41,378 bases of DNA from the NCBI GenBank assembly GCA_001897825.1, contig MKUM01000097.1:1-41378 (forward strand), given 5' to 3'. A program made the translations under genes and the position numbers. Of the stretch, positions 2,760-10,664 are shown one piece after another. Each line of letters begins with the position of its first letter. Position 1 is the stretch's first letter. The DNA comes from Candidatus Amoebophilus sp. 36-38. Its GTDB lineage: Bacteria; Bacteroidota; Bacteroidia; Cytophagales; Amoebophilaceae. The notes beneath the pieces are model-generated. The model was not told the origin of the DNA, searched no databases, and was given only the letters and a program-made list of their open reading frames with translations.

Positions 2760-2922
2760 TCTGTTTATTGAGGGCTGAAATCTTCTAGTAATTACTTTGC
2801 TGATGTACGTGCCTTTGTATGTGCCGCCTACCGTTAAAGTTCATACCACAAGCCAGGATACCTATGCTAGGGGTGCATCTAAAATAGTTTTATCATCGCT
2901 ACAACTTTACCTTATAAAATAT

Positions 2923-2930
2923 TATATTTG
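2923..2930 (+). promoter_or_regulatory. Possible Bacteroidota -7 promoter box
   Basis: TATATTTG matches the Bacteroidota -7 consensus TAnnTTTG exactly and would start a transcript about 25 bases before the ATG at 2962. No clear TTTG -33 box sits at the expected distance; a run of four T is nearby. It supports the downstream start for ppiD but is weak evidence alone. Confidence 0.3.
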
Positions 2931-2961
2931 GCAACTATATATAGATATATTCAAGAAATTA

Positions 2962-4758
2962 ATGGCATTAATCGGTAAAATAAGAGAAAGAACACAACTT
3001 TTAGTAGTTATTGTTTCATTAGGATTACTATTCTTTATAGCTCGAGAGCTGATCGGGTTTAATCCGCTCTCATCCAATAAGTCTCCTATAATAGGTAAAG
3101 TGGCTGGTCAAAAAATTACTTTGAGGGAATTTCAAGATCAGTTTAGTAATCTGCAACACAGTTACTTTTTAGATTATGAACAGGCTCCTTCTGAAGAAGA
3201 AAATGCTTTGTTAAGAAATCGGCTTTGGAAAAACATAATCCGAGATATTGTTTATGGAAAATTATGTAAGCAATTAGACTTAATAGTTACTGAAGATGAA
3301 CTTGTAGATATGGTTCAAGGGGATCATATTCACCCTGATTTACAGGCTAGTTTTATTAATCCAGAAACCAAGGAGTTTGATAAAAAAACCTTGTTAACCT
3401 ATTTGCAAAATTTATCTCAGTCAGGTCAGTCTTACCAAATTTATTGGTACAATCTAGAGAGGAATTTAGCTAAGTCAAGATGTCAGACTAAGTTTGATCA
3501 ATTGATATCGCAGAGTGTATTTGTAAATAGCCTGGAAGCACAGCATCAATTTGTTGTCAATGGTACTTCTGTAGATCTTCAGTATCTATATATACCTTAT
3601 CATACTATTAAGGATGAAGAAGTTAGCATGAAAGAGGAGATGTTGAAGACCTATTTGCAAAAGCATGCAGATGAGCATCAAGTAAAGGAATCTAAAGAGA
3701 TACATTATGTTACCTTTCCTATACGAGCCTCTGAAAATGATCAAGTAGATTTTAATAAAGAGCTAGAGATACTTAAGCAAGATTTTTATAAGACTCAAGA
3801 AGATAGTTTGTTTGCTAGTGTACATACAGATTCAAATCCTGCACTTGTTTACTTAAAATGTACCGAACAGGATTTACCAACATCCTTAAATAAGCAAAAA
3901 AGCACGTTGCAGCAGAGGATGGTGATAGGCCCTCTAGCTGAAGGAGCTGATGGCTATAAGCTGTATAAGATAACTAAGCTAGTTGCAGGAAATCCCAAGA
4001 AATATGAGATAACGGTTATTGAGAAAACGTTAACCCCAAGTGATGAGACCAAAGAAAGTGTATTTAAAAAAGCAGATGATTTTGTACATCGAGTAGCTAA
4101 TAAAACACAATTTGAGTCTCAAGCTGCTGCAGACAGTTTACGTATTTACAGTGCAAAGGTGGGAAAAGAAGATACCCAAATAAATCATTTAACTCATGTC
4201 AGAGAATGGGTCCGTTGGGTGTATAATGAGGCACAAGTAGGGAGGGTATCACCTATGTTCGAATTATCAGAAAATTATGTAGTGGCTGTGGTTACGGGGC
4301 ATACGAAAGCTGGGCTAGTTGCCTTAGATCAAGTTCGAGACGACATAAAACAAAAGGTATTAGACGAAGAAAAGGCAAAAATTATTACAAGAAAACTTGA
4401 GTCTATATCAAATGATCCATTTGATTCGATCGTAACTCAATATGGAAATGATGTAAAATTATTTACTGCTCAAGGAATCAAATTTAATACTACTAGACTA
4501 GATGGGATAGGCCTAGCTAAAAAAACAATCAGCCAAGCTTTTGCTTTGGAGCCGAGCCAAAGATCCAAAATCATTGCTGAGCTATCCGGTATTGTACTAA
4601 TGGAAGTCAAACAACGATATCTACCAACTTTACCTGTCTCTTGGAAGGATAAACAAGAGGAACAAGCTAAAATAGAAGCATCTAGACAGTCTTACCAAGT
4701 AATTAAGGCGCTAGAACAGTTAGCAAATGTGCAAGATTATAGATATAAATACTATTAA
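2962..4758 (+). CDS. ppiD: PpiD/SurA-like peptidyl-prolyl isomerase (periplasmic chaperone)
   Basis: The 598-residue protein has one N-terminal membrane anchor (about residues 11-34) followed by a SurA-N/PpiD chaperone domain (about 40-210). Two divergent parvulin-like segments follow (about 235-350 and 365-480), then a helical C-terminus. PpiD-family proteins sit in the inner membrane facing the periplasm and help outer-membrane and secreted proteins fold. The usual parvulin signature (GGDLG and conserved His) is not visible, so isomerase activity may be weak or lost while the chaperone role remains. The frame is open upstream to 2797, but those 55 extra residues look unlike a signal and would displace the membrane anchor from the N-terminus. 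The ATG at 2962 is therefore preferred. It stands alone between the Sel1 gene and the symporter fusion. Confidence 0.75.
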   Translation: MALIGKIRERTQLLVVIVSLGLLFFIARELIGFNPLSSNKSPIIGKVAGQKITLREFQDQFSNLQHSYFLDYEQAPSEEENALLRNRLWKNIIRDIVYGKLCKQLDLIVTEDELVDMVQGDHIHPDLQASFINPETKEFDKKTLLTYLQNLSQSGQSYQIYWYNLERNLAKSRCQTKFDQLISQSVFVNSLEAQHQFVVNGTSVDLQYLYIPYHTIKDEEVSMKEEMLKTYLQKHADEHQVKESKEIHYVTFPIRASENDQVDFNKELEILKQDFYKTQEDSLFASVHTDSNPALVYLKCTEQDLPTSLNKQKSTLQQRMVIGPLAEGADGYKLYKITKLVAGNPKKYEITVIEKTLTPSDETKESVFKKADDFVHRVANKTQFESQAAADSLRIYSAKVGKEDTQINHLTHVREWVRWVYNEAQVGRVSPMFELSENYVVAVVTGHTKAGLVALDQVRDDIKQKVLDEEKAKIITRKLESISNDPFDSIVTQYGNDVKLFTAQGIKFNTTRLDGIGLAKKTISQAFALEPSQRSKIIAELSGIVLMEVKQRYLPTLPVSWKDKQEEQAKIEASRQSYQVIKALEQLANVQDYRYKYY

Positions 4759-4905: not shown

Positions 4906-7900
4906 ATGTTCAATCTAGATATACTCATTTTTTTAATTTTCTTAGTTATTAATCTTATTGTAGGTATTAAGTCGCGGGGCAAGAAACAAACCTTTAAAGA
5001 ATATGCCATTGGCAACAAGAATTTCTCTACAGCCACACTTACTGCTACTATTGTAGCTACGTGGGCTTCAGGGAGCTTGTTTTTTAATGATTTAGAACAG
5101 ACTTATAGCAATGGGTTGTACTACGCAGCAACGATCGTAGGTAGTACGTTATCTTGGCTAATTATTGGATATGTTTTAGGGCCACGCATGGACACCTTTT
5201 TAAAGCATGTTTCGATGGCCGATGCCATGAGCAGCATTTATGGTAAAGGAGTCCAGTTTGTTGGTGCTGTAAGTACTGTACTGGCAAATGTAGGTTTTAT
5301 CGCTGTACAGTTTAAGGTAATTACAAAGATTCTATCCATCTTATTTAATTACCAAGGGCCTTGGGTTACCATCCTGGCTGCTACGATTGTTATTATTTAT
5401 TCAGCATTTGGGGGCATTAAATCGGTTACGTTTACAGATGTCATCCAGTTTATTACATTTGGTACTTTGTTACCTGCACTAGCTCTGATTATTTGGCAAC
5501 ATATCCCAAATCACGAACAGGTGGTACATACCCTCACGACCAATCCAAATTTTAATTTAAAACATGTAATAAAATGGAGTCCTAAGTTTAAAGGTGCTTT
5601 GGTTTTGATATGTTATTATATGGTGCCTAGTTTAGCCCCAGAAATATTTCAGCGAATGGCCATGGCAAAAGATATCGGCCAAATAAAACGTTCTATTGCT
5701 TATTCTGCAGGGTTGCTGCTTTTAATAGAGCTATTTATAATTTGGATAGCTATTTTGCTCTTGACAGATAATCCTAACCTCACCACAAGCCAAGTGGTTA
5801 GCTATATGATCGAGAAGTATACCTATACAGGTCTTAAAGGATTTTTAGGAGTAGGGATTATAGCTTTGGCTATGTCTAGTGCAGATTCTTCACTCAACTC
5901 TTGCGCTGTATTAGTTGCAAATGATATACTGCCTCCTTTACAAATTACCAAACAAGCTTTAGTTCGAATAGCTGCTCTCGCTACGTTTGTAATAGGCTTT
6001 TTTGCTGTATTACTCACTTTATCCATTCAGAACATCTTAGAAATCTTATTGTTTTCTGCCAACTTTTACATGCCTATCATTGTAATTCCTATGTTGCTAA
6101 CGATCTTTGGCTTCCGTACAAGCAAACGGGCCATTTTCATAGGCATGGGAGCTGGTTTTGCTGTGACCGCTTTTCTATTAACCTATTTTAAAGATATTGA
6201 CAGCTTTCTTCCTGGTATACTAGCTAACCTTGTCTTCCTACTAGGTAGTCACTACTTACTCAAAGAAAAAGGGGGATGGATCAAACAGGAAGCTGAAGCA
6301 GGGGTAGCAGCTATTACTTGGAAAGATCGATGGGTCCAGCTAAAATCTTTTAATCTACCAGCTTATCTCGAAAAAAACCTGCCTGATCAAGAATATTATT
6401 ATCCTTTGCTAGCCTTTTATCTACTTATTGCTACGTATGTCTCGCTATACCACTTACCACATGATACCGAGCAACAGTATCTAGCGCTTTATAGAACTAT
6501 CCAATATTCAGTACTGGTGATTACTACAAGCTTATTAGGCTTTCAAATTTGGCCAGCTCCACTAAAAAACAAGCGATTGCTAGCATGGGTATGGCCTTTG
6601 CTTATCTTCTATACGCTCTTTTTTGTAGGAGGAATGATTGTGATTATGAGTGGGTTTCAGCCAAACCAAGTTTTAATCTTTATGCTAAGCTTGGTAATGA
6701 TTGCCTTATTCACCTATTTGCCATTAGCGCTTACATTGGCTATAGCTGGGATGGTAGCTGCTGCATGGGTATTTAAATGGGTTACGGGCCACGACATCTC
6801 ATTTAATCAAGGAATGCCTATTTCTTTTCATTTTAGCTATGGATTGCTTCTATCAAGTAGTTTATTAATAGCGTTATTTAGGTTTAAGCAAGAAAGAAAA
6901 ATTTTGCAAAGTAAAAATAGGTATCTAAAGGATTTATATGAAGAAAAAAATGAGGAGCTCATGCAGATTTTAGCTTATAGAGAACAGGTATTAAAAGAGC
7001 TTAATGAAGAAGAGAAGGTATTATTTGATCATACTACGTCGGCATATTTTCAGCAAATCCTTTATCGGATGACAGATTATATCCGTTTAGACGTAACTAA
7101 AATTAATGTAGATCAGTTGTTATCGGAAGTGAAAGAAGCCATTAAAATTACAGAATTTACTACAAGTCCTCAGATTAACATTAGACACATTACAAAAGAA
7201 GTAACAATAAATGGTGATGCAGCAAAACTGAAGCAGCTATTAGTAAACGGTATTTCGTATGTACACAAATATAACCCAACGAATCAACCTATTCTTATTG
7301 CTGTAGAAGACACTAAGCTAGGCCATAAGGTAGACTATATAGAAGATTATACGAGGGAATTAGTAGCCTTAAAATTTACGGTTACTGTAGAAAAGCTTTC
7401 TTCTGAAAAGAAAGATATTTATATGCTCGACGAGCTACCATTGATAAGTCCACTTTCAAAAAAAGGTATCTTATTAGAAAACGCACGTATCATTCACGCT
7501 CACTATGGTTATGCAGAGCTAGATAATGAACATACGCAAATGTACGTGCTTCCATTGAATCTCCGAGAAGTACGAGGTAAGGTGATGGAACTTCTAAGAG
7601 AGCTTAATTCAGTTGATCCAGAAGAGCTAAATCATCCGATTGCTATACAGGTAGAAAAAGAGCTATTAGAGAAAATAAAAGGCCTGAGTATAGATGTTAA
7701 AGTTATTGGCAAGGCATTAGATACGATCAAGCGATACCATGCAAGGGTGAAAAGGAAATCGGGAGAACCATTTTTTACCCATCCCATACAAGTAGCTACC
7801 ATCTTATTAGGATACTGTCAGGATCAAGACGCCGTAGTGGCAGCTTTATTACATGATACCGTAGAGGATACGAATTTATCTTTAGTTCAAATAAAAATGA

Positions 7901-8214
7901 TATTTGGAGAACAAGTAGCTTTTATCGTAAGCAAAGTGACCAATCTAGAAGATAACCTACGAAGGGTAAGCTCGGAGGAACATGAAAATGTTTATCGGTT
8001 GTTAAAATATGAGGATAAACGGGCAGCTTATGTAAAATTAGCAGATAGGATGCATAATATGCGTACTATACAAGGGCACTCTTCTCTAACTAAACAAAAG
8101 TCAATAGCTAGCGAAACGTTGTATTTCTTTGTACCTTTGGCAAATAGCCTAGGTTTAGAAGACATAGCAAAGGAATTAAAAACACTAAGTTTGGAGGTAT
8201 TAGGTAAAAAATAA
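4906..8214 (+). CDS. Sodium:solute symporter fused to a kinase-like region and a SpoT-type HD hydrolase
   Basis: The single frame of 1102 residues joins four parts. Residues 1-455 are a sodium:solute symporter (SSF/SLC5) with about 13 membrane helices and the conserved small-residue motif LAMSSADSSLNS (321-332), near the Na2 site. Residues about 498-658 add roughly six more helices. Residues about 660-890 form a cytoplasmic region with a coiled coil and a histidine-kinase-like layout: a helix around His709, then an ATPase-like stretch near 770-885 in which the N-box is altered and the DxGxG motif is missing. Residues about 925-1090 are a RelA/SpoT-type HD domain with His959, His983-Asp984, the VEDT motif (986-989) and Asp1047 all present. 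No synthetase domain follows. The likely role is a membrane sensor that links solute or sodium state to (p)ppGpp hydrolysis. Domain identities are clear; the joint function is inference. Confidence 0.85.
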   Translation: MFNLDILIFLIFLVINLIVGIKSRGKKQTFKEYAIGNKNFSTATLTATIVATWASGSLFFNDLEQTYSNGLYYAATIVGSTLSWLIIGYVLGPRMDTFLKHVSMADAMSSIYGKGVQFVGAVSTVLANVGFIAVQFKVITKILSILFNYQGPWVTILAATIVIIYSAFGGIKSVTFTDVIQFITFGTLLPALALIIWQHIPNHEQVVHTLTTNPNFNLKHVIKWSPKFKGALVLICYYMVPSLAPEIFQRMAMAKDIGQIKRSIAYSAGLLLLIELFIIWIAILLLTDNPNLTTSQVVSYMIEKYTYTGLKGFLGVGIIALAMSSADSSLNSCAVLVANDILPPLQITKQALVRIAALATFVIGFFAVLLTLSIQNILEILLFSANFYMPIIVIPMLLTIFGFRTSKRAIFIGMGAGFAVTAFLLTYFKDIDSFLPGILANLVFLLGSHYLLKEKGGWIKQEAEAGVAAITWKDRWVQLKSFNLPAYLEKNLPDQEYYYPLLAFYLLIATYVSLYHLPHDTEQQYLALYRTIQYSVLVITTSLLGFQIWPAPLKNKRLLAWVWPLLIFYTLFFVGGMIVIMSGFQPNQVLIFMLSLVMIALFTYLPLALTLAIAGMVAAAWVFKWVTGHDISFNQGMPISFHFSYGLLLSSSLLIALFRFKQERKILQSKNRYLKDLYEEKNEELMQILAYREQVLKELNEEEKVLFDHTTSAYFQQILYRMTDYIRLDVTKINVDQLLSEVKEAIKITEFTTSPQINIRHITKEVTINGDAAKLKQLLVNGISYVHKYNPTNQPILIAVEDTKLGHKVDYIEDYTRELVALKFTVTVEKLSSEKKDIYMLDELPLISPLSKKGILLENARIIHAHYGYAELDNEHTQMYVLPLNLREVRGKVMELLRELNSVDPEELNHPIAIQVEKELLEKIKGLSIDVKVIGKALDTIKRYHARVKRKSGEPFFTHPIQVATILLGYCQDQDAVVAALLHDTVEDTNLSLVQIKMIFGEQVAFIVSKVTNLEDNLRRVSSEEHENVYRLLKYEDKRAAYVKLADRMHNMRTIQGHSSLTKQKSIASETLYFFVPLANSLGLEDIAKELKTLSLEVLGKK

Positions 8215-8396: not shown

Positions 8397-10664
8397 ATGA
8401 TCTCTTCTTTGGATTCGCTTAATGAGCGGCAACGTGAGGCCACAGTTAATACGGAAGGGCCTTGTATGATTATTGCAGGTGCGGGTGCAGGTAAAACAAA
8501 GGTACTCACAGCTCGCATTGCTTATTTGATACAAGAAAAAAAAGTAGATCCATTTAAAATACTTGCACTTACCTTTACGAATAAGGCAGCGAATGAAATG
8601 AAAAATCGTATTGAACAAGTAGTAGGTTCAATAGCGAAAAATGTATGGTTAGGTACTTTTCATAGCTGTTTTGCAAGAATCTTAAGAATAGAAGCAGATA
8701 GGATTGGTTATCCATCTAACTTTAGCATCTATGATACGGCTGATAGTAAATCGTTACTCAAGTCTATCATCAAGGAGATGAACTTAGACGATAAAACGTA
8801 TACACCCAACGTAGTGTTGTCACGCATATCATCTGCTAAAAATCGTTTAATTACAGCACAAGAATATTTTAACAACCCCCTATATCGTGAAGATGATGAA
8901 AGTGCCATGAAACCAAGGCTCGGAGAAATCTTTGTAACCTATGCTAAACGCTGTTTCCAGGCTGGTGCAATGGACTTTGATGACATACTTTTAAATACTT
9001 ATTTACTATTTAACCAGCACTTAGATGTTTTATATAAATATCAAGAACGATTTCAATATATGCTTATTGATGAGTTTCAAGATACCAACCTAGCCCAATA
9101 TACCATTATAAAAGATCTAGCAGTTGTCCATAACAATATATGCGTAGTAGGAGATGATGCACAGAGTATTTATGCCTTTAGAGGAGCTAACATACGTAAC
9201 ATTCTAAATTTTGAAAAAGATTATCCGAATCTTGTAATTGTAAAGCTAGAGCAAAATTATCGTTCCACACAGAATATTGTAGAAGCTGCCAATGAAATTA
9301 TCGGTAAGAATCAGTTGCAACTAAAAAAAAATGTTTGGACTGCTAATGAAAGGGGCGAACTGATTGGGCTAATCCGAGCAACTACAGATGCAGAGGAAGG
9401 TAGATTGGTAGCAGCTTCTATTTTTGAAATAAAAGTACAAAATCAGCTTAGAAATGAAGATTTTGCTGTTCTTTATAGGACGAATAGCCAATCAAGAGCC
9501 ATTGAGGAGGCACTTCGCAAAGTAAATCTACCTTATCGCATGTTGGGTGGAATGTCTTTTTATCAAAGAAAAGAAGTTAAAGATTTATTAGCCTATCTAC
9601 GATTCATAGTCAATCATAATGACGAAGAAGCACTGAAACGTATTATCAATGAACCTAAACGAGGAATAGGTCCTAGCAACATTGAAAAAATGATTTTGGT
9701 AGCCAGTGATCATGGTATTTCTTTGTGGGAAGTGATGTGTAATGCTAAAAATTTTTTGAGTGGGCGTGCAGCCGAAGCGGTAGAAGAGTTTGCTGGTATG
9801 ATTCAGGTTATTGCTTTAGAAGTATCTAAAAAAGATGCGTATGAAATAGCTAGTGAAATTGCAAAAAGGTCCGGCTTGCTTAAGTCGCTCTATGAAGATA
9901 AGACAGTCGAAGGGTTAGCCCGCTACGAAAATGTGCAAGAACTTCTAAGTGGTATTAAGGCATTTACTTCGAATCCTGAACAAGCTGATCCTGGCCTAAC
10001 TAACTTTTTACAAGATATCGCTTTGGCTACTAATAGTGAAATAACTGATGAAGATGGCGGGGATAAGATATCTTTAATGACTATACATGCAGCCAAGGGG
10101 CTAGAATTTAAATATGTATACATTGTAGGGATCGAGGAAGACCTTTTCCCTTCTCCACTCATGCTAGGAAGTAAAGAAGATTTAGAAGAAGAAAGAAGAT
10201 TATTTTATGTCGCACTTACTCGCGCCAAAAAGAAAATTTTCTTATCTTATACTATAAGTAGGTATCGTTTTGGGAAATTAAAACAGTGCGAAGTAAGTCG
10301 ATTTATTGGAGAGATAGACCCCATGTACCTACATATGTCCCATGCTACTAATAGATATACTGAAAAATTGAATACGAACTATGCTAAACAGTTTATTAAT
10401 AGCATGCGGCCTATGGCATCCCCAAAACGTGCCAAATTACAACCTGATCCTTCAACCAACATCCAAGCTTTCCAAGCTAGTGATATCACTCAACTTAAAT
10501 CAGGTATGCAGGTAGAACATCCTACGTTTGGTATAGGTAATGTGATAACCATCGAATTAGCAGGGGCACATAAGAAAGCTCGGATTAATTTTTCAGGGTT
10601 AGGTGAAAAGACCTTGTTACTTAGCTTTGCTAAGCTAAAGATTTTAAGCAGTTCTAAGGAATAA
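8397..10664 (+). CDS. uvrD: UvrD/PcrA-type DNA helicase
   Basis: The 755-residue protein is a full-length superfamily 1A 3'-5' DNA helicase. Walker A is AGAGAGKT (27-34, Lys33). Further on come the TFTNKAA motif, GTFHS, the Walker B motif IDEFQDTN, GDDAQSIYAFRGA, QNYRST and, near the C-terminus, VALTRAKKKI. The final 70 residues resemble the PcrA/UvrD C-terminal segment that contacts RNA polymerase. It would unwind DNA in nucleotide-excision repair and remove replication blocks, and uvrC lies elsewhere in the window. The ATG at 8397 places the Q-motif (LNERQREA) at residues 8-15, as in the family. Confidence 0.93.
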   Translation: MISSLDSLNERQREATVNTEGPCMIIAGAGAGKTKVLTARIAYLIQEKKVDPFKILALTFTNKAANEMKNRIEQVVGSIAKNVWLGTFHSCFARILRIEADRIGYPSNFSIYDTADSKSLLKSIIKEMNLDDKTYTPNVVLSRISSAKNRLITAQEYFNNPLYREDDESAMKPRLGEIFVTYAKRCFQAGAMDFDDILLNTYLLFNQHLDVLYKYQERFQYMLIDEFQDTNLAQYTIIKDLAVVHNNICVVGDDAQSIYAFRGANIRNILNFEKDYPNLVIVKLEQNYRSTQNIVEAANEIIGKNQLQLKKNVWTANERGELIGLIRATTDAEEGRLVAASIFEIKVQNQLRNEDFAVLYRTNSQSRAIEEALRKVNLPYRMLGGMSFYQRKEVKDLLAYLRFIVNHNDEEALKRIINEPKRGIGPSNIEKMILVASDHGISLWEVMCNAKNFLSGRAAEAVEEFAGMIQVIALEVSKKDAYEIASEIAKRSGLLKSLYEDKTVEGLARYENVQELLSGIKAFTSNPEQADPGLTNFLQDIALATNSEITDEDGGDKISLMTIHAAKGLEFKYVYIVGIEEDLFPSPLMLGSKEDLEEERRLFYVALTRAKKKIFLSYTISRYRFGKLKQCEVSRFIGEIDPMYLHMSHATNRYTEKLNTNYAKQFINSMRPMASPKRAKLQPDPSTNIQAFQASDITQLKSGMQVEHPTFGIGNVITIELAGAHKKARINFSGLGEKTLLLSFAKLKILSSSKE

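Follow-up and report, generated by a model that had tools for sequence, protein, structure and literature searches.

Can a nutrient transporter act directly on the growth brake of a bacterial cell? The question is raised by a gene of the intracellular bacterium Candidatus Amoebophilus sp. 36-38, located in a 41,378-nucleotide stretch of contig MKUM01000097.1 (hereafter, the window), which encodes a sodium:solute symporter (SSF), a histidine-kinase-like region and a SpoT-type HD hydrolase in a single chain. In the known control of the stringent response, starvation is sensed via ribosomes, acyl carrier protein and small-protein partners. An earlier note on this DNA proposed that a transporter is here wired directly to a hydrolase of the alarmones guanosine tetra- and pentaphosphate, (p)ppGpp, and that the system may be undescribed. 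Our analysis leaves practically no doubt that this architecture and a hydrolase-type site are present, and suggests that the protein probably works as a transporter-coupled (p)ppGpp hydrolase with a pseudo-kinase relay and an HD output. Anatomy, fold and selection favor the proposed wiring, as does the decayed hydrolase site of Rel in the same genomes, but the wiring is neither unique to this gene nor wholly unseen before.

Positions 4906-8214 of the forward strand form one uninterrupted ATG-to-stop frame of 1102 codons, in line with the earlier note, and the protein runs from the SSF domain through six transmembrane helices and a decayed histidine-kinase region to a SpoT/Mesh1-type HD domain. 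A frame error joining two genes, or a chance arrangement, is excluded because nine full-length copies in the genome from which the window comes (G000; 1.76 Mb in 106 contigs) and eleven in a genome of the same genus (G001; one contig of 1,884,364 bp) share the architecture. The G000 fusions measure 1102-1169 residues, in a genome with 15 HD_4 and 16 SSF matches. Fusion-length frames with an HD domain occur in 16 of the 21 genomes of the family, Cardinium-like ones included, which rules out a lone unique gene.

The HD domain is matched by Pfam HD_4 (residues 937-1084; 99.8 bits against a cut-off of 27.2) and by the HD part of NCBIfam spoT_relA (TIGR00691; 149 bits, model positions 1-166 of 687), and its closest solved relatives by sequence are Rel/SpoT enzymes, followed by Mesh1. 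The metal ligands predicted by the earlier note (His959, His983, Asp984 and Asp1047) stand exactly at those positions, within a complete catalytic octet (R950, H959, H983, D984, E987, D988, D1047 and N1051). Pfam found no RelA_SpoT synthetase, TGS or ACT domain in the window protein, as expected of a hydrolase without a synthetase, and a hidden synthetase was discarded on the same grounds. AlphaFold2 models were built on alignments of the window protein with loci of the genome collection (13-15 sequences), reaching a mean predicted local distance difference test (pLDDT) score of 75.6 for residues 686-1102 and of 74.1 for the full length. In the fold comparison that the earlier note had called for, the HD part of the 686-1102 model resembled full-length SpoT (7qpr; Z 24 over 187 residues, 2.2 A), Rel enzymes (Z 20-22) and human Mesh1 (Z 19), placing the predicted fold in the SpoT/Mesh1 type. 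The physiological substrate of the domain is very probably (p)ppGpp.

The identification of the N-terminal half as a sodium:solute symporter likewise stands. Pfam SSF matches residues 33-417 (53 bits against a cut-off of 22.8), and the full-length model shows a LeuT-type fold resembling the sialic acid symporter SiaT (5nv9; TM-score to target 0.82) and the choline transporter CHT1 (TM-score to target 0.74-0.79). The motif ALAMSSADSSL in the eighth transmembrane helix is near-identical to that of human CHT1 in alignment (MSSADSSL versus MSSADSSI), and its Ser/Thr positions are kept in the family (S324 in 45 of 47 proteins, T/S325 in 46 of 47); we take this Ser/Thr motif to be associated with Na+ binding, and Na+-coupled transport would be the expected activity of this half. 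A host metabolite as its solute, as suggested in the earlier note, is a guess. The predicted model places the six further helices of the earlier note at approximately residues 498-515, 526-544, 556-581, 586-602, 605-627 and 640-665, a stretch (498-665) to which Pfam assigns no family. Across the corresponding DNA (window 6343-6960), synonymous divergence (dS) from the C36 paralog is 0.26, compared with 0.9-1.4 in the other domains, an unusual likeness that points to local gene conversion.

Between the helices and the HD domain lies the segment that the earlier note had described as degenerate and histidine-kinase-like. It matches no Pfam kinase family, HATPase_c included, and NCBIfam reports only weak kinase similarity at residues 726-808. 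The description is upheld by family-profile alignment with an intact Megaera SSF-kinase (hhalign E 8e-5) and with the solved kinase ThkA (E 2e-4), and by the match of model residues 40-203 (residues 725-888 of the protein) to the catalytic and ATP-binding (CA) domains of the kinases NtrB (Z 14.6), ThkA (Z ~14) and HK853 (Z ~14). Among 47 Amoebophilaceae proteins the phospho-acceptor column, in an H-box region whose exact alignment is uncertain, holds no conserved histidine (T, E, K, Y, A and P are the commonest residues, and HETRTP of the Megaera kinase becomes NEEEKV in the window protein), and neither the first G1 glycine nor the G2 glycine is preserved. In the same set, the N-box Asn (Asn781 in the window protein) is kept in 34 proteins and the G1 Asp (Asp802) in 38, and His866 and Gly868 of 'AHYG', within the family motif RIIxAHYGY at residues 861-869, are invariant. 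Loss of the H-, G1- and G2-box residues rules out an active SSF-histidine kinase. Because these residues are gone and yet the domain is under purifying selection, we infer that the region is a selected pseudo-kinase and not an ATP-dependent phosphotransferase, although it may still bind nucleotides in a modified way.

Relatives with an intact kinase domain help to interpret this region. Plasmid proteins of Candidatus Megaera (Rickettsiales), 33-34% identical to the window protein over approximately residues 2-769, carry the same SSF-six-helix unit followed by HisKA and HATPase_c domains well above cut-off (motifs HETRTP, DEGIGIP and GGRGIGLAL) and have no HD domain; within the window's own family, G005 encodes an SSF joined to a HATPase_c kinase but lacking a fused HD. 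Since both present the SSF-six-helix unit with an intact ATP-binding domain and no HD, the kinase region of the window protein seems to be a decayed relay that has acquired a new output.

Ratios of nonsynonymous to synonymous substitution (dN/dS), computed with the Nei-Gojobori method for pairs of paralogs and for the two Amoebophilus genomes compared with each other, are 0.05-0.10 for the HD domain, ~0.09-0.17 for the pseudo-kinase and 0.10-0.28 for the SSF domain, values that are rough because many dS lie near saturation. All domains are under purifying selection. The catalytic octet is complete in 9/9 full-length fusions of G000 and 11/11 of G001, and in 66 of the 82 fusions sampled from 16 genomes, each of which has one complete copy or more. 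Identity between the window protein and the C50 copy is 48% in the SSF domain, 39% in the six helices, 69% in the pseudo-kinase and 79% in the HD domain (45, 40, 83 and 86%, respectively, between the C12 and C50 copies). The input and output halves evolve unlike each other, a pattern to be expected if many inputs converged onto one kind of output, aided by gene conversion among the copies. The pattern RI[IV]xAHYGY yielded 29 matches in the genome collection, and the 16 of them confirmed as relatives all belong to Amoebophilaceae/Cytophagales metagenome-assembled genomes or to Cardinium. Among 395 sampled Bacteroidota genomes, only weak matches, probably to ordinary kinases, were obtained outside G000, and a search of plasmids returned both halves together in Cardinium only, Rickettsiales chromosomes lying outside these distribution searches.

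The earlier note had also recommended looking for RelA/SpoT synthetases in the rest of the genome. G000 encodes exactly one RelA_SpoT synthetase domain, in a 434-residue protein without TGS or ACT (L040:7368-8672, minus strand; G000:C6), and the hydrolase half of this Rel protein is dead, reading LLYDILKD for LLHDxVEDT and KFAEYLHKM for KLADRLHNM. In all 16 fusion-bearing genomes Rel retains 0-4 of the eight hydrolase residues, the synthetase motifs being largely kept; extra synthetase copies in G013 and G020 are too short to contain an HD domain. The octet is complete only in the bifunctional Rel of G007 (749 residues, intact HD), a genome without an HD fusion, and G003, G005, G008 and G009 have no fusion and a synthetase that is absent or a weak relic. 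For two Cardinium-like pairs, dN/dS of the Rel HD is ~0.46, versus 0.08-0.19 for the remaining protein. It appears that the transporters have largely taken over the breakdown of alarmone. Near the dead-HD Rel of G000 also lies a small standalone HD protein with the broken motif LLYDMV (L040:4926-5600; G000:C6).

We propose that an ancestral SSF-six-helix sensor kinase lost its phosphotransfer chemistry, its kinase region being retained as a mechanical or dimerizing relay and a SpoT-type HD domain becoming the output. Occupation of the SSF domain by substrate and Na+, or its turnover, would shift the relay made up of the six helices, coiled coil and pseudo-kinase, and this shift would turn the cytoplasmic HD domain on or off. 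Regulation of the HD domain by the transporter seems to us somewhat better than an even proposition. With nutrient present, the hydrolase would be on, (p)ppGpp low and growth sustained; with nutrient absent, the hydrolase would be off and alarmone from the single Rel-type synthetase would accumulate. For this sign, in which the nutrient-loaded transporter favors hydrolysis, the chances are about even. The nine copies, with their diverse transporter halves, would feed several nutrients into one alarmone pool. The linker and relay helices (residues 684-722) have pLDDT under 50 and are unreliable, which is why we leave the geometry of the relay helices unclaimed.

Because nine fusions accompany a single Rel with a decayed hydrolase half, the uptake of nutrients may control the growth brake directly. 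We tentatively extend this to an inside-out stringent response in Amoebophilaceae, an idea whose chances we put slightly below even: one synthetase, without a hydrolase of its own and, in most sampled genomes, without a ribosome-sensing C-terminus, would face a bank of transporter-borne hydrolases that sets the alarmone level by removal, with solute uptake gating (p)ppGpp. A transporter with a covalently attached alarmone hydrolase would connect nutrient import directly to the growth brake, bypassing any two-component step, and would show a sensor kinase shedding its chemistry and retaining its relay role for a new output. It would also account for the expanded SpoT hydrolases of Amoebophilus and Cardinium, which live as symbionts in amoebae and arthropods.

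Several points weigh against this interpretation. The fusions are not the sole hydrolase, since G000 encodes a standalone SpoT-type hydrolase with all catalytic residues (C55, 197 residues), and other enzymes may also degrade alarmone. The association with Rel decay may reflect one ancient event or a few independent ones, and the proposed sign of regulation is guessed on physiological grounds. In addition, the octet has become incomplete in 16 of the 82 sampled fusions and some family members (the C103 copies) have no HD domain altogether, so that the pseudo-kinase or the transporter may have other uses.

Among other explanations, the one that survives best, though we consider it unlikely, is a constitutive membrane-anchored hydrolase, in which the SSF domain would transport and the HD domain would hydrolyze (p)ppGpp, the two being joined for co-expression and localization only and the pseudo-kinase being an inert spacer. 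The loss of the kinase motifs would agree with it, as would the apparent split into SSF and six-helix-pseudo-kinase-HD frames in G000 (C32) and G001 and the nesting of some standalone HD fragments among the HDs of fusions in the tree. Drift would be expected of an inert spacer, yet the pseudo-kinase shows purifying selection, with its low dN/dS, invariant His866 and Gly868 and largely kept N-box Asn and G1 Asp, and the sensor-like order of transmembrane region, coiled coil, transducer and output is maintained across the family. It is improbable, in turn, that the HD domain acts on another nucleotide, such as (p)ppApp or NADPH (a reported substrate of Mesh1), and that its output is not the stringent response: a (p)ppApp hydrolase (7smg; Z 14.9) and Mesh1 in complex with NADPH (5vxa; Z 19) adopt the same fold, but the best sequence and fold matches are to SpoT/Rel, and Rel in the same genomes lacks its own hydrolase while keeping its synthetase motifs.

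We give still less credit to a relic amplification, in which mobile elements would have carried the copies along without selection for any role as fusions. In Orientia, Rickettsiales amplified genetic elements (RAGE) carry SpoT hydrolases and kinases as amplified cargo, much of it degraded (PMC10732058), and several copies of the present family are split or short of catalytic residues. Against this stand the strong purifying selection in all four domains, the complete octet in all 20 full-length G000 and G001 copies and the ordinary SurA-like and UvrD genes that flank the window copy. Least probable of all is a pseudo-kinase that still senses nucleotides, binding ATP, GTP or alarmone to gate the HD domain with the transporter merely modulating, for although Asn781 and Asp802 (Mg/adenine contacts in kinases) are mostly kept with the H-box and G1/G2 glycines gone, loss of the G2 glycines normally abolishes tight ATP binding in kinases.

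A transporter-coupled hydrolase of this kind has partial counterparts among known systems. CbrA and CrbS/MxtR also combine an N-terminal SSF and a cytoplasmic signaling output in one chain; CbrA and CrbS are studied SSF-kinases, and CbrA, which carries histidine, has been called a transceptor (PMC7918813, PMC13022988). Whereas these proteins combine an active kinase with PAS and a soluble four-helix STAC domain (and, in CrbS, with REC), the window protein has six predicted transmembrane helices between SSF and kinase region, a kinase without the phospho-acceptor His and G-box glycines, and an HD output. The closest SSF-six-helix homologs found outside the family are Rickettsiales SLC5+HK (histidine kinase) proteins (on Megaera plasmids, and the 'SLC5sbd+HK' of Rickettsia and Orientia); those of Megaera differ in their intact kinase, lack of HD and hydrolase encoded by a separate gene. 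Mesh1, RelH, the Pseudomonas aeruginosa small alarmone hydrolase (SAH) and rickSpo[H] share with the window protein an HD domain without synthetase, the fold and the catalytic residues, but the studied small alarmone hydrolases are soluble single-domain proteins, whereas in the window protein a membrane transporter carries the hydrolase as its C-terminal output; the published rickSpo[H] class covers the A. asiaticus hydrolases (PMC3153485). The window HD most resembles that of bifunctional SpoT/Rel members of the RelA/SpoT homolog (RSH) family (Z 20-24), in a protein that lacks their SYNTH, TGS and ACT domains. HATPase-SpoT fusions of Orientia similarly combine a hydrolase and a partial kinase ATPase domain (PMC10732058), but they number one to four copies, in some genomes, and no SSF transporter is described for them.

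In a tree of HD domains, those of the fusions cluster beyond shuffled-label expectation and do not group with the two sampled Megaera HDs. Some standalone hydrolases nest within fusion clades and are probable break-offs, and others fall together with hydrolases of Megaera. Two Megaera plasmids carry the SSF-kinase and the hydrolases as separate genes on the same replicon, and both kinases and SpoT hydrolases are cargo of rickettsial RAGE (PMC10732058, PMC4316617). SLC5+HK proteins in Rickettsia, with lateral spread to Amoebophilus and Cardinium, were reported in a 2017 study of Rickettsia metabolism (PMC5615194). A joining of SSF-kinase and hydrolase parts in an ancestor of Amoebophilaceae is plausible.

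The claim that the system is undescribed holds only in part. The family is an amplified one, with Amoebophilus listed in 2011 as a 'Rel[HS] + rickSpo[H] expansion' of 15 RSH proteins (Atkinson 2011, PMC3153485), and a 2018 paper on Cardinium cPpe lists in passing 'spoT ... sodium glucose cotransporter' with 18 Amoebophilus homologs (PMC6232779). On the other hand, our search of the mostly open-access literature found no analysis of the transporter-alarmone hydrolase, its pseudo-kinase, the Rel decay or the stringent response of Amoebophilaceae.

Table 1. Features of the fusion gene and its neighbors, in window coordinates.
Feature	Position	Strand	Basis
Full fusion gene: SSF, six transmembrane helices, pseudo-histidine-kinase, SpoT-type HD hydrolase	4906..8214	+	Frame and Pfam
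SSF (SLC5-type) transporter domain, residues 1-450	4906..6255	+	Pfam SSF; model versus SiaT/CHT1; CHT1 alignment
Six further transmembrane helices, residues 498-665, without named family	6397..6900	+	Predicted model; no Pfam match
Coiled-coil/DHp-like (dimerization and histidine phosphotransfer) helices, residues 666-724, phospho-acceptor His replaced	6901..7077	+	Model (low pLDDT) and alignment
Pseudo-kinase CA-like domain, residues 725-887	7078..7566	+	Profile alignment, fold match, motif alignment
SpoT/Mesh1-type HD hydrolase domain (HD_4), residues 937-1084	7714..8157	+	Pfam; fold match
RKSGEPFFTH: Arg950 and metal ligand His959	7753..7782	+	Residue alignment
HDTVED: metal ligands His983-Asp984 and catalytic Glu987-Asp988	7852..7869	+	Residue alignment
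DRMHN: metal ligand Asp1047 and Asn1051	8044..8058	+	Residue alignment
Upstream neighbor, SurA/PpiD-like peptidyl-prolyl isomerase, outside the system, marking its boundary	2797..4758	+	
Downstream neighbor, UvrD/PcrA helicase, outside the system	8397..10664	+	

A scan for promoters and terminators yielded sites no more numerous than in shuffled sequence. Variants of the architecture were encountered at several loci. Three adjoining SSF-six-helix-pseudo-kinase copies in G000 stop short of the HD domain (L049:3543-13655; G000:C103), and two HD-less copies of the C103 type in G001 (L080) are conserved (dN/dS ~0.1), so that a version without hydrolase seems to have a role of its own. Each Amoebophilus genome has one copy split into SSF and six-helix-pseudo-kinase-HD frames (L043:2216-5647, minus strand, and L078:1698-5028), which may represent a real two-gene version or parallel breakage. 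An 899-residue SSF copy adjoining a full fusion (L042:4365-7061; G000:C31) has a C-terminus that looks unrelated and has no Pfam match, and tandem standalone SSF genes (~470-480 residues) lie by a fusion with lost HD catalytic residues at L068:7008-12746 (G014:C89). The copy on Cardinium plasmid p_B (CP101108.1; L242:6061-9415) is annotated as two overlapping genes, and that on sister plasmid p_A (CP101109.1) is unbroken. Elsewhere in the window, positions 429-2699 encode a Sel1-repeat protein with 12 repeats and positions 33755-36025 a leucine-rich-repeat protein, kinds often tied to host interaction in amoeba symbionts.

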